From Lentilactobacillus kefiri (GTDB lineage Bacteria; Bacillota; Bacilli; Lactobacillales; Lactobacillaceae): a stretch of DNA of 40,852 nucleotides. The position numbers and the translations under genes were made by a program. Location: assembly GCF_007989105.1 (NCBI RefSeq), contig NZ_BJVK01000016.1:1-40852 (forward strand), in the 5' to 3' direction. Each line of letters begins with the position of its first letter. Position 1 is the first letter of the stretch. The notes beneath the pieces were generated by a model. The model was given only the letters and a program-made list of their open reading frames with translations. It did not search any database and had not been told where the DNA came from. Shown piece after piece: positions 24,626-39,934 of this stretch.

Positions 24626-25699
24626 ATGGAAAATGATTATAAAGTAAAAGTTGAAAATGTGACCAAGGAATACGAATTGTTCAAAACACAATCAGAAAAG
24701 CTGAGATCATTCTTTTCGATTACCAAAAAACATGTGCCGCATTTTTGGTCATTGATGGGGGTTTCACTTACAATCAAGCCTGGTGAAACGCTTGGACTGA
24801 TCGGGGTTAACGGATCCGGAAAATCAACTATTTCGAATATTATTTCAGGAATTATCCCACAAACGACTGGATATGTTGATGTTCGGGGTGAAACTTCGAT
24901 TGTTGCTATCCATGCCGGATTGAGAAGCAGTTTAACCGGACGTGAAAATATTCGGCTTAAATCTTTGATGCAGGGATTAACCAATGAGGAAATTGATGAA
25001 TTGATGCCTGATATCATTTCATTTGCCGATATTGGTGATTTCGTTGATCAACCTGTCAAAAGTTATTCCAGTGGTATGAGATCACGTTTGGGATTTGCAA
25101 TTGCCGTTCACATTAATCCTGACATTCTGATCATCGATGAAGCACTGTCTGTTGGTGATGATACTTTCTATCAAAAGTGTGTGGACAAGATTACCGAGTT
25201 CAAGGCTGAAGGAAAGACGATCATCTTTGTCAGTCATTCACTGAAACAGATTGAAATGTTGTGTGATAAAGTTGCTTGGATTAACTATGGTGAACTGAAA
25301 ATGGTTGGTGAGACCAAGGAAGTTACCAAGCAATATCGTGAATTTACCCGGTGGTTCAAAAAGCTCAGTAAAAAAGAGAAGCATAAGTTTGAGACAGAGC
25401 GAAAGAGTGTTCAAAAGAACTTCAGCATTAAAAATTATCAAAAACAGATTACAGAGCAGGAACAGGCAGCGCATCCAGATGAAAAGGATGTTCCGGCAAA
25501 AGTTCATAAACGGTTCTACGGATCGGTCATCAGTGAAAAGATGTCGGTTTGGAATCAGCTCTTAACCTGGGCTGTCTTAATTCTGGTTATCTTCTTCTGC
25601 TTAGTGAACGTTTCAGGACATTCACTTCAGCATGTGATCGATAACCCAACGTCAATTGTGCGTCCATCGCACACATTGCATTTACCAGGTAAGGAATAA
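24626..25699 (+). CDS. tagH: Teichoic acid export ABC transporter, ATP-binding subunit TagH
   Basis: This 357-residue ATPase powers export of wall teichoic acid or a similar polymer. The ABC signatures are present: Walker A GVNGSGKST (about 60-68), signature YSSGMRSRLGF, Walker B LIIDEALSVGD, and the switch His in FVSHSLKQ. The N-terminus (VTKEYELFKTQSEKLRSFF) is typical of polysaccharide-export ATPases. After a charged linker a single membrane helix (about residues 311-331) is followed by a short outer tail, as in TagH but shorter than the Bacillus protein. No TagG permease is next to it, which is unusual. The ATG at 24626 has AGGAGC upstream. Confidence 0.9.
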   Translation: MENDYKVKVENVTKEYELFKTQSEKLRSFFSITKKHVPHFWSLMGVSLTIKPGETLGLIGVNGSGKSTISNIISGIIPQTTGYVDVRGETSIVAIHAGLRSSLTGRENIRLKSLMQGLTNEEIDELMPDIISFADIGDFVDQPVKSYSSGMRSRLGFAIAVHINPDILIIDEALSVGDDTFYQKCVDKITEFKAEGKTIIFVSHSLKQIEMLCDKVAWINYGELKMVGETKEVTKQYREFTRWFKKLSKKEKHKFETERKSVQKNFSIKNYQKQITEQEQAAHPDEKDVPAKVHKRFYGSVISEKMSVWNQLLTWAVLILVIFFCLVNVSGHSLQHVIDNPTSIVRPSHTLHLPGKE

Positions 25700-25717: not shown

Positions 25718-25752
25718 AGACAGCCAACTTTGAAGGTTGGCTGCCTTTTTTG
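25718..25752 (+). terminator. Terminator after tagH
   Basis: CAGCCAAC (25721-25728) pairs perfectly with GTTGGCTG (25736-25743) around a 7-base loop, followed by six T residues. It lies 10 bases before the next promoter. Confidence 0.9.
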
Positions 25753-25761
25753 TGATTATAG

Positions 25762-25790
25762 TTGACAGCGCTTACAATATTGAGTATATT
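25762..25790 (+). promoter_or_regulatory. Strong promoter overlapped by a cre (CcpA) site
   Basis: TTGACA (25762-25767), a 17-base spacer and TATATT (25785-25790) make one of the best promoters in the window. The 14 bases at 25763-25776, TGACAGCGCTTACA, match the cre consensus TGWNANCGNTNWCA at every defined position and overlap the -35. CcpA binding here would block the promoter, so repression by preferred sugars is the expected effect. Confidence 0.8.
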
Positions 25791-25796
25791 ATGTTC

Positions 25797-25875
25797 GGGT
25801 ACTAAATAAATACCTTCTAATCAATTCTCTTTCTCTCTTAAAAAACTGGCGTCTTTATAACGTCAGTTTTTTTAT
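25797..25875 (+). ncRNA. Candidate small regulatory RNA or attenuated leader, about 79 nt
   Basis: From the predicted start near 25797 the RNA would have a small 5' hairpin (GGGTA/TACCT), then an unpaired pyrimidine-rich stretch around TTCTCTTTCTCTCTT (25825-25839). It ends with a terminator at 25843-25875. No reading frame of useful size lies inside it. The CU-rich stretch is complementary in kind to purine-rich ribosome sites. The reading as a trans-acting RNA is inference; the alternative is a leader controlling readthrough into the gene at 25922. Confidence 0.5.
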
Positions 25876-25876
25876 G
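25843..25876 (+). terminator. Terminator ending the short cre-controlled transcript
   Basis: AAACTGGCGT (25843-25852) pairs with ACGTCAGTTT (25860-25869), one base pair imperfect, around a 7-base loop, followed by a T-run. It lies upstream of the ribosome site of the next gene. Confidence 0.85.
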
Positions 25877-25921
25877 TATAATTGTTTTTGTGAGCTAAGA
25901 AAACCAAGAGGAGGATTTCTT

Positions 25922-26230
25922 TTGAAGAGTCATGAAGTTCTAACGTTAATTGAAGAGATTACCAGAAATGATGGCAGCAAGTATATTGAGATCAGTAACA
26001 TGGTTCAAAACGGTCGTGCAGAATTAGCCGCTGACAGGGGCTTCATCAAGCAGGTAAGGATATTACAGCTAAACATTCCACATTCACCTCACGTTGCTAA
26101 ATATGAGCATTATATCAACGAGAATTACACGATGCCGACAGAAGATATGGATCACTTCGAAGAATGGAAGAAAACCCCTGAGATGCAAAAAGAAGTTGAC
26201 ATTATTCTTAAAGAAAATCACATTAGTTAG
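25922..26230 (+). CDS. Hypothetical protein, 102 residues
   Basis: I do not recognise this small soluble protein. It is rich in Glu, Lys, His and Ile, has no signal peptide or membrane helix, and looks helical at both ends (HEVLTLIEEITR and EMQKEVDIILKEN) with a central part containing HSPHVAKYEHYINENY. The TTG at 25922 is preferred, because AGAGGAGG (25907-25914) lies 7 bases ahead; an in-frame ATG at 25874 sits on the upstream terminator T-run. A TATAAT at 25877-25882 could give it its own promoter. Otherwise it depends on readthrough from the cre-controlled promoter. Confidence 0.7.
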   Translation: MKSHEVLTLIEEITRNDGSKYIEISNMVQNGRAELAADRGFIKQVRILQLNIPHSPHVAKYEHYINENYTMPTEDMDHFEEWKKTPEMQKEVDIILKENHIS

Positions 26231-26320: not shown

Positions 26321-26392
26321 TGCTCCGTAGTTCAGTGGTAGAATAATTGACTGTTAATCAAGAGGTCGCTGGTTCGAACCCAGCCGGAGCAG
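26321..26392 (+). tRNA. tRNA-Asn (anticodon GTT)
   Basis: The cloverleaf folds over 72 bases. The acceptor arm is TGCTCCG/CGGAGCA with discriminator G. The D arm is GTTC/GAAT with a short 7-base loop. The anticodon loop CTGTTAA carries GTT, and the T arm is GCTGG/CCAGC around TTCGAAC. CCA is not encoded. The closing pair of the anticodon stem (27-43) is A and G, leaving four good pairs. It stands alone, not in a tRNA cluster, and is followed by a terminator. Confidence 0.9.
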
Positions 26393-38660: not shown

Positions 38661-38666
38661 TGTAGA

Positions 38667-38738
38667 GTTATGAGTTCCCGATAGGATTCGCGTTTTACGT
38701 GAAGAAGCCTTGTAACCTTAAAAAATAATAGGGGGAAA
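38667..38738 (+). promoter_or_regulatory. SMK box (SAM-III) riboswitch of metK
   Basis: The leader holds GTTCCCGATAGGAT (38674-38687), a CG-CGTTTTACG hairpin region, GAAGCCTTGTAACC (38704-38717), and the ribosome site GGGGG (38731-38735) 8 bases before the metK ATG. These are the conserved parts of the SMK box of Lactobacillales, where SAM binding pairs the ribosome site with an anti-SD and stops translation. The arrangement is standard, giving feedback by the enzyme's product. Confidence 0.88.
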
Positions 38739-38743
38739 ATGAA

Positions 38744-39934
38744 ATGCGCGAAAAACATTTATTTACTTCGGAATCAGTTTCAGAAGGCCATCCGGATAAG
38801 ATTGCTGATCAGATCAGTGATGCTATTTTGGATGCCTTGTTAGCAAAAGACCCGGATGCCCGGGTAGCATGTGAGACATCAGTTACGACCGGTTTAGTGT
38901 TCGTATTTGGTGAAATTTCAACCACAGCCTACGTTGATATCCAAAAGGTTGTTAGAAACACAATCAAGCGAATTGGCTATCGAGATGGCCGCTATGGATT
39001 TGATGGCGACTCTTGTGGTGTGATTGTTTCTTTGGATGGTCAATCACCTGACATTGCAATGGGTGTTGATGATGCATTGGAACAGCGTGAAGGCAATGGT
39101 GATCCACTGGATCAAATTGGTGCCGGTGATCAGGGCTTGATGTTTGGCTATGCCATCAACGAAACCCCTGAATTAATGCCGCTGCCAATTTCATTGGCGC
39201 ACAAATTAATGAGAAAACAGGCTGCATTGCGTAAAAGTGGCGAAATTGGCTATCTTGGACCCGATGCAAAGGCTGAAGTGACCGTTGAGTACGATGACAA
39301 TGGCAAGCCTGTCAGAGTTGATACTGTGGTTTTGAGTACCCAGCATGACGATGGTGTGCGTTTGGATCAGGTTCGCAATGATGTGATTAATCAGATTATC
39401 AAAAAGGTGATTCCTGCCAAGTACCTTGATGACAAGACCCGCTATCTGGTCAATCCAACCGGTCGATTTGTGATTGGTGGTCCTCAAGGGGATGCCGGTT
39501 TGACTGGTCGAAAGATCATTGTCGATACCTATGGTGGTTATGCCCATCATGGTGGTGGTGCCTTTTCAGGTAAGGACGCCACAAAGGTGGACCGTTCTGC
39601 CAGTTACGCAGCCCGTTACATTGCCAAGAATATTGTTGCTGCCGGTCTTGCAACCGAAGCAGAAATTCAGTTGGCCTATGCAATTGGGGTTGCCAAACCA
39701 GTTTCAATTAATATCAATACCTTTGGTACTGGTAAAGTATCTGAAGAGAAACTAATTGATGCCACCAGAGCATTATTTGATTTACGTCCTGCCGGCATTA
39801 TTAAAATGTTGGATCTTAAGCGGCCAATTTATGAACAAACTGCCGCATATGGACACTTCGGAAGAACAGATATTGATCTTCCTTGGGAACATACTGATAA
39901 GGTTGATGCGTTAAAAGATTATTTCAAGTTATAA
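38744..39934 (+). CDS. metK: S-adenosylmethionine synthase
   Basis: MetK makes SAM from methionine and ATP in the cytoplasm. At 396 residues it is full length. Conserved motifs are [19 protein letters not shown] at the N-terminus, the ATP motif [12 protein letters not shown], and the P-loop-like [17 protein letters not shown]. The ATG at 38744 follows GGGGG by 8 bases. An SMK box controls it. A perfect terminator follows. Confidence 0.97.

Follow-up and report, generated by a model that had tools for sequence, protein, structure and literature searches.

The window (the whole stretch of 40,852 nucleotides of Lentilactobacillus kefiri DNA analyzed here) contains a compact block between a tagH-like gene and a gene coding for a 102-residue protein, comprising a promoter, a cre, a 5′ hairpin, a CU-rich stretch and a terminator, and the question raised by this locus is whether the block is a free-standing small RNA gene or the leader of the gene to its right. 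The earlier note had proposed either an undescribed carbon-responsive small RNA or a leader that attenuates the gene at 25922. From comparison of sequences we consider it probable that the block encodes a conserved, CcpA-controlled, trans-acting small RNA (sRNA) of about 79 nt, the core of which would pair with target mRNAs, including glcU in many genera. The features of the locus, and one further feature of the window, are as follows.

24626–25699: tagH-like gene, the upstream neighbour, which has its own terminator
25721–25743, + strand: terminator of the tagH-like gene, separating that gene from the sRNA
25762–25790, + strand: sigma-70 type promoter, with TTGACA at 25762–25767, a 17-nt spacer, and TATATT at 25785–25790
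25763–25776, + strand: cre (CcpA operator) TGACAGCGCTTACA, overlapping the −35
25797–25815, + strand: 5′ hairpin GGGUA...UACCU; from the −10, the start of transcription is expected near 25797
25819–25838, + strand: conserved core AATCAATTCTCTTTCTCTCT, unpaired and proposed as the seed for base pairing
25840–25876, + strand: intrinsic terminator, with a 13-bp stem at 25840–25872 and a T run; the RNA end is expected near 25875
25875–25882, + strand: TGTATAAT, a probable separate −10 of the downstream gene
25922–26230, + strand: 102-residue protein gene (TTG start), the usual neighbour and not a predicted target
26321–26392 of the window: tRNA gene, then a terminator-like hairpin, just past the 102-residue protein gene
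38663–38746 of the window: SAM-III (SMK box) riboswitch, 72 bits

The promoter agrees with the consensus at 11 of 12 positions and is the top site of a 2-kb scan; relatives have a comparable promoter layout, and 99 of 130 loci score 10 or 11 out of 12 at their best promoter. The common forms of the cre consensus include TGWNANCGNTNWCA and WTGNAANCGNWNNCW, and the site satisfies all defined positions of the former and has one mismatch to the latter, such that the claim of a match at every defined position holds for the first form and fails for the second, while the overlap with the −35 stands. The RNA from 25797 to 25876 is predicted to fold at −15.9 kcal/mol (z −5.6, with none of 200 shuffles as low) into the 5′ hairpin, an unpaired stretch containing the CU core, and the terminator hairpin with its T run. 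The mean unpaired probability of the core is 0.93 over 130 loci, and is at least 0.8 in 116 of these. Reading through the predicted RNA gives no ATG before 25874, with room for at most 26 codons. The near-consensus promoter, the unpaired stretch of U and C, the T-run terminator and the lack of a useful reading frame described in the earlier note are thus all borne out. At gathering scores Rfam gives no match at the block, a lax setting returns only four unrelated families (E 4.2 to 9), and the Rfam 6S covariance model has no match at 25762–25876.

Conservation of the block in relatives had been named beforehand as a test, and it is found both in the genus and across the family. First, a DNA search gave matches in 28 of 60 genomes, including all 23 Lentilactobacillus relatives; the block itself is present in 22 of the 23, because the match in G020 covers the downstream gene only, and neither the core search nor the RNA model gave a match in that genome. 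Secondly, the 20-nt core, allowing two mismatches, is present in 145 of 301 Lactobacillaceae genomes, usually as one copy per genome, with a reversed-pattern control giving four matches in the same search. These matches span 17 of 40 genera, of which 16 is the better figure because the sole g12 match (G269, locus L037) has no promoter or terminator around the core, and at least this one of the 145 is a chance match. The carrier genera among the matches listed include Lentilactobacillus, Levilactobacillus, Lactiplantibacillus, Limosilactobacillus, Ligilactobacillus, Liquorilactobacillus, Loigolactobacillus, Paucilactobacillus, Secundilactobacillus, Furfurilactobacillus, Latilactobacillus, Pediococcus, Periweissella and Dellaglioa, and the food and gut species L. 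plantarum, L. brevis, L. reuteri, L. salivarius and pediococci are among the carriers; six unrelated organisms among the matches listed have the core without the surrounding block. Thirdly, of 148 genomes from the order the RNA model, under stricter filters, matches five, each of them from the Lactobacillaceae, and when applied to 32 chosen genomes, mostly core-less, it identified one further true relative, G156, whose core carries a 1-nt insertion. The block is therefore confirmed to be real and beyond chance.

Among 130 distinct loci, 120 share an identical core and the other ten vary only within its first three bases, a figure that is partly built in because most of the loci were gathered by the core search; the named loci came from a scan with an exact 19-mer, which gave at least 120 stretches, and the others mostly from the core search. 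Fairer measures of conservation are the two-mismatch search, in which 133 of the 145 carrier genomes have an exact copy, and the DNA search of the genus. Outside Lentilactobacillus the core is about 25 nt long, the bases TATGC coming next in 105 of 107 loci (Lentilactobacillus and g35 left out).

Covariation in related genomes is evident in the terminator helix, where both sides have changed in 10 of 11 pairs among 48 aligned sequences. For both helices together there are 91 cells with two-sided changes compared to 35.5 in shuffled alignments (0 of 500), and 87% of helix cells pair, compared to 29–57% with the partner slid. The 5′ hairpin, in which 94% of cells are paired, is mostly invariant or G-U, and so provides little information from covariation. 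These patterns bear on the proposal that the promoter and cre alone are functional, the conserved DNA being not an RNA seed but, for example, an untranscribed protein site. Such a proposal draws on the fact that the transcript is predicted from sequence only, but covariation in the terminator stem, conservation of the 5′ hairpin and the unpaired state of the core all fit an RNA, and we regard it as very improbable.

A strict cre lies upstream of the core in 111 of 130 distinct loci (from 136 loci, those with less than 100 nt upstream being excluded), compared to 1 of 2600 shuffles. It overlaps the −35 in most genera; a position about 10 nt downstream, on the −10, is seen in many loci of Limosilactobacillus and in some of both Pediococcus and Liquorilactobacillus. 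At L155, L159 and L203 (Limosilactobacillus and Pediococcus) the cre has shifted within the promoter, from the −35 element to the −10 element, an instance of operator turnover in which regulation is apparently kept. Retention of cre control through the shift in site argues for repression by CcpA, and this regulator probably represses the sRNA promoter.

The gene to the right of the block codes for a highly conserved protein with a confident structure model (pLDDT 94.6), which belongs to no Pfam or NCBIfam family and has no Foldseek match among solved folds (best E 0.19); because there is no matching solved fold, no RNA-binding role can be argued for it. Its start region pairs with the core at background (−8.8), and it was rejected as a target. 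In 106 of 117 loci (of the 130, loci with less than 600 nt downstream being excluded) the gene follows the block within 400 nt in the same orientation, and no TATAAT intervenes in 59 of the 117, as could be expected if the short RNA were a prematurely terminated 5′ leader of this gene, with some signal permitting read-through. However, the remaining 11 of the 117 loci keep the core without the adjacent gene, which is further off in seven (four of the seven Lactiplantibacillus loci, and one each from Loigolactobacillus, Liquorilactobacillus and g11) and was not found in four (all three g35 loci and one Loigolactobacillus), and the RNA is thus more than a leader for its neighbour. A TATAAT is present within 110 nt past the core end in 58 of the 117 loci. 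Among Lentilactobacillus loci 13 of 16 have it past the terminator, as do 17 of 20 from Levilactobacillus, and none of the seven Lactiplantibacillus or five Pediococcus loci has it; in the window, the downstream gene has its own TGTATAAT box. The sequence of the terminator stem drifts freely, the mostly unpaired core does not compete with it, none of 64 folds examined has an antiterminator pairing, and a leader would leave the conservation of the core unexplained. An attenuating leader is therefore disfavored, and we consider it quite unlikely. The interpretation given in the earlier note is supported in part, its leader being disfavored and its undescribed carbon-responsive sRNA being well supported by the deeply conserved core, the covarying terminator, the conserved cre, the lack of an Rfam match and a conserved predicted target that is likewise one of RsaI (see below).

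The upstream neighbours of the block vary by genus and include tagH, glmS, glmM and nagB; these were named from their N-termini, and the TagH of the window was also compared with protein families. At L100, L106, L114, L117, L126, L149, L150 and L217 the sRNA is beside glmM-, glmS- or nagB-like genes, which are involved in amino-sugar metabolism, and such a neighbourhood may be the ancestral location of the sRNA.

In the regulatory circuit that we propose for a trans-acting sRNA, CcpA bound at the promoter cre would hold the sRNA gene off while a preferred sugar is present, and the sRNA would be produced when that sugar is exhausted. Its unpaired core, AAUCAAUUCUCUUUCUCUCU, would then pair with target mRNAs where these are purine-rich, at the ribosome-binding site or immediately 5′ of it, and stop their translation. 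In many genera one target would be glcU, encoding a glucose-uptake permease (PF06800), and if the sRNA blocks glcU, CcpA would indirectly keep the permease on in glucose and off afterwards. The block has its own promoter and intrinsic terminator without an open reading frame, a conserved cre in that promoter, and, in 12 genera, conserved complementarity to an mRNA encoded elsewhere; from these we infer its expression, its repression by CcpA and the block of translation.

Candidate targets were sought in two genomes, G002 (Lentilactobacillus) and G316 (Ligilactobacillus), by screening the start regions in an 800-kb sample of each, about half the genome, with a simple gene caller. Among 163 orthologue pairs a PF06800 sugar-transport gene ranks first, with a summed value of −33.1 compared to −27.8 for the next, −27.7 for the best with the reversed core, and −25.1 to −32.9 for eight shuffles, and the called start of its G002 member is uncertain. 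Orthologues of glcU were then collected at E below 1e-60 and pairing was computed on the 65 nt before the start. Four loci were dropped before counting, L411 (contig edge), L421 and L432 (broken or partial frames) and L454 (contig start), as were the second glcU copies L434 and L435 (−7.3 and −8.1) and matches without a locus. Core–glcU pairing averages −15.8 in 42 carrier loci compared to −8.6 in 15 non-carrier loci, with G156, first grouped as RNA-less, moved to the carriers; the difference between carriers and non-carriers is equalled by 1 of 500 shuffled cores (with G156 still counted as RNA-less). The per-genus mean over 12 genera is −16.24 kcal/mol, compared to −9.8 (sd 1.5) for shuffled cores, none of 500 being as low, and G316 genes in general pair at −8.0 (sd 2.9), none of 100,000 random sets of 12 being as low. 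Paralogues of glcU in carrier genomes (20 loci) average −9.0, ranging from −3.7 to −14.9, and none has a GAGAGA; this motif lies upstream in 25 of 55 compared to 0 of 28. The RNA-less genera g12 and g13 fall within a carrier clade of the GlcU tree (support 90/94) and pair weakly, and the proteins of Limosilactobacillus, one Ligilactobacillus and Periweissella are on other branches with the site still present, some of the joins being uncertain. With complementarity conserved in 12 genera, glcU is the best-supported predicted target. A strict cre is within 200 nt of glcU in only 3 of the 42 carrier loci, and half-site-like matches are near it in 12, mostly from Levilactobacillus and Secundilactobacillus, so that in many genera the sRNA would be the sole visible link between glcU and CcpA.

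There are several departures from this pattern. The reversed core pairs with glcU at −13.8, and part of the signal is therefore purine richness, since any CU-rich RNA favors purine-rich start regions; the true core is the better of the two in 10 of 12 genera (in Ligilactobacillus by 0.1 only), the exceptions being Secundilactobacillus and Periweissella. Two genomes of the RNA-less g12 still pair at −14.3 and −12.2, and there are carriers that lack a glcU site, among them G288 (−6.7), G210 (−9.5), one Limosilactobacillus (G283, −7.7) and G156, whose best glcU is without a site. Predicted accessibility is 0.55 at the glcU site and 0.53 over the whole region, so that the site has no advantage.

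The genus of the window itself differs. In the genome of the window the sole glcU homologue is 34% identical and contains stops, and complementarity to glcU is not found there; glcU proper was not found in nine Lentilactobacillus genomes, which have distant homologues of at most 44% identity or, in two, none. Pairing with six of these distant homologues is −14.8 for G006 and −7.1 to −12.0 for the others. That this genus keeps the core in spite of having no glcU proper could be taken to suggest that the core of a CcpA-controlled sRNA mainly binds a protein or another RNA, as a decoy or sponge, with glcU complementarity being secondary, and a core of 20 nt, or about 25 nt outside Lentilactobacillus, does exceed the need of one seed. 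A decoy would not, however, require that glcU sites follow the presence of the RNA and be weak in paralogues, as they are, and we think this explanation unlikely.

If the sRNA instead acts by pairing in Lentilactobacillus as well, its target set would be shifted there, perhaps to a lineage-specific protein of about 114 residues whose gene carries a cre. This family, which matches no Pfam family, is present in 18 of 37 genomes searched, all Lentilactobacillus, with up to eight matches per genome (L549–L578). Of 29 loci examined (the partial match L566 being left out), 13 are the closest copies; each of these has a loose cre within 350 nt, and 12 pair at −14 or below (the exception being G015, −7.6). 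Among the other 16, one pairs at −14 or below (G012, −17.3) and six have a loose cre. The reversed core pairs equally well with these genes in the buchneri subgroup, and the copy in the window genome has an internal stop. The family is a weak candidate for the Lentilactobacillus target, because it was chosen post hoc among the matches listed. Enolase (−11.5) and gatC (−15.5) likewise recurred as candidates in this genus.

Other candidates were rejected. Used as a target rule, the full-length complement RGRGRGRRRGRGRRTTGRTT, allowing two mismatches, gave 44 non-self matches in 24 genomes of the genus compared to 32 for the reversed control. Two candidates were compared across 14 genera, in 30 genomes: the start region of manL (from L. 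senioris) is not conserved as a target and gives isolated low values (e.g. L289, −17.5, and L269, −15.6), and a rhodanese gene following glcK pairs strongly in G022, G006 and G000, moderately in G003 and G018, and not in the other four Lentilactobacillus tested, with an isolated −17.1 outside the genus in G087.

Several known RNAs invite comparison. SR1 of Bacillus subtilis is a small RNA under carbon control that acts by base pairing; it is longer than 79 nt and also encodes a peptide, whereas the RNA described here, without an ATG, cannot. The 6S RNA of lactic acid bacteria has a cre overlapping its −35, taken as likely inhibitory in the published account (PMC8414754); it shares this arrangement with the lactobacillus RNA, but is a promoter mimic of about 200 nt. 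LLMGnc_147 of Lactococcus lactis is reported to be a 102-nt sRNA tied to carbon source (cellobiose and galactose) that raises expression of a sugar-uptake cluster and is conserved in lactococci (PMC6085457), whereas our RNA model found nothing outside Lactobacillaceae in the sample of the order. The closest parallel is with RsaI of Staphylococcus aureus, which is reported to be a 111-nt RNA that is repressed by CcpA and derepressed in glucose starvation, blocks translation of glcU_2 by pairing with its Shine-Dalgarno sequence, and has fn3K, icaR and rsaG as further targets (PMC9266662). The same regulator, target family and logic are predicted for the lactobacillus RNA, and the computed features in common are an unpaired CU-rich seed and pairing with the mRNA of a GlcU-type permease in its ribosome-binding region; the lactobacillus RNA is the shorter of the two, with one short hairpin before its core. 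On the question of common ancestry with RsaI, we note the lack of an Rfam match and the restriction of the RNA model matches in the order to Lactobacillaceae. We tentatively suggest, as a possibility that we hold with less than even confidence, that a circuit of the RsaI type, linking CcpA, an sRNA and glcU, arose independently across the family around a near-frozen 20-nt seed, and that its targets have changed. In this view the glcU site recurs on three separate branches of the GlcU tree and fades along with the RNA in g12 and g13, and the seed was re-used in Lentilactobacillus for the lineage-specific protein family.

No description of this RNA was found among the papers listed in the literature searched, which lay mostly outside subscription journals, and to our knowledge post-transcriptional control in lactobacilli has been little charted. 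If correct, the proposed circuit would connect CcpA to glucose uptake in a conserved manner across species common in food and the gut, and would provide a clean case of an RsaI-like circuit, with the same regulator and target, in another bacterial order.
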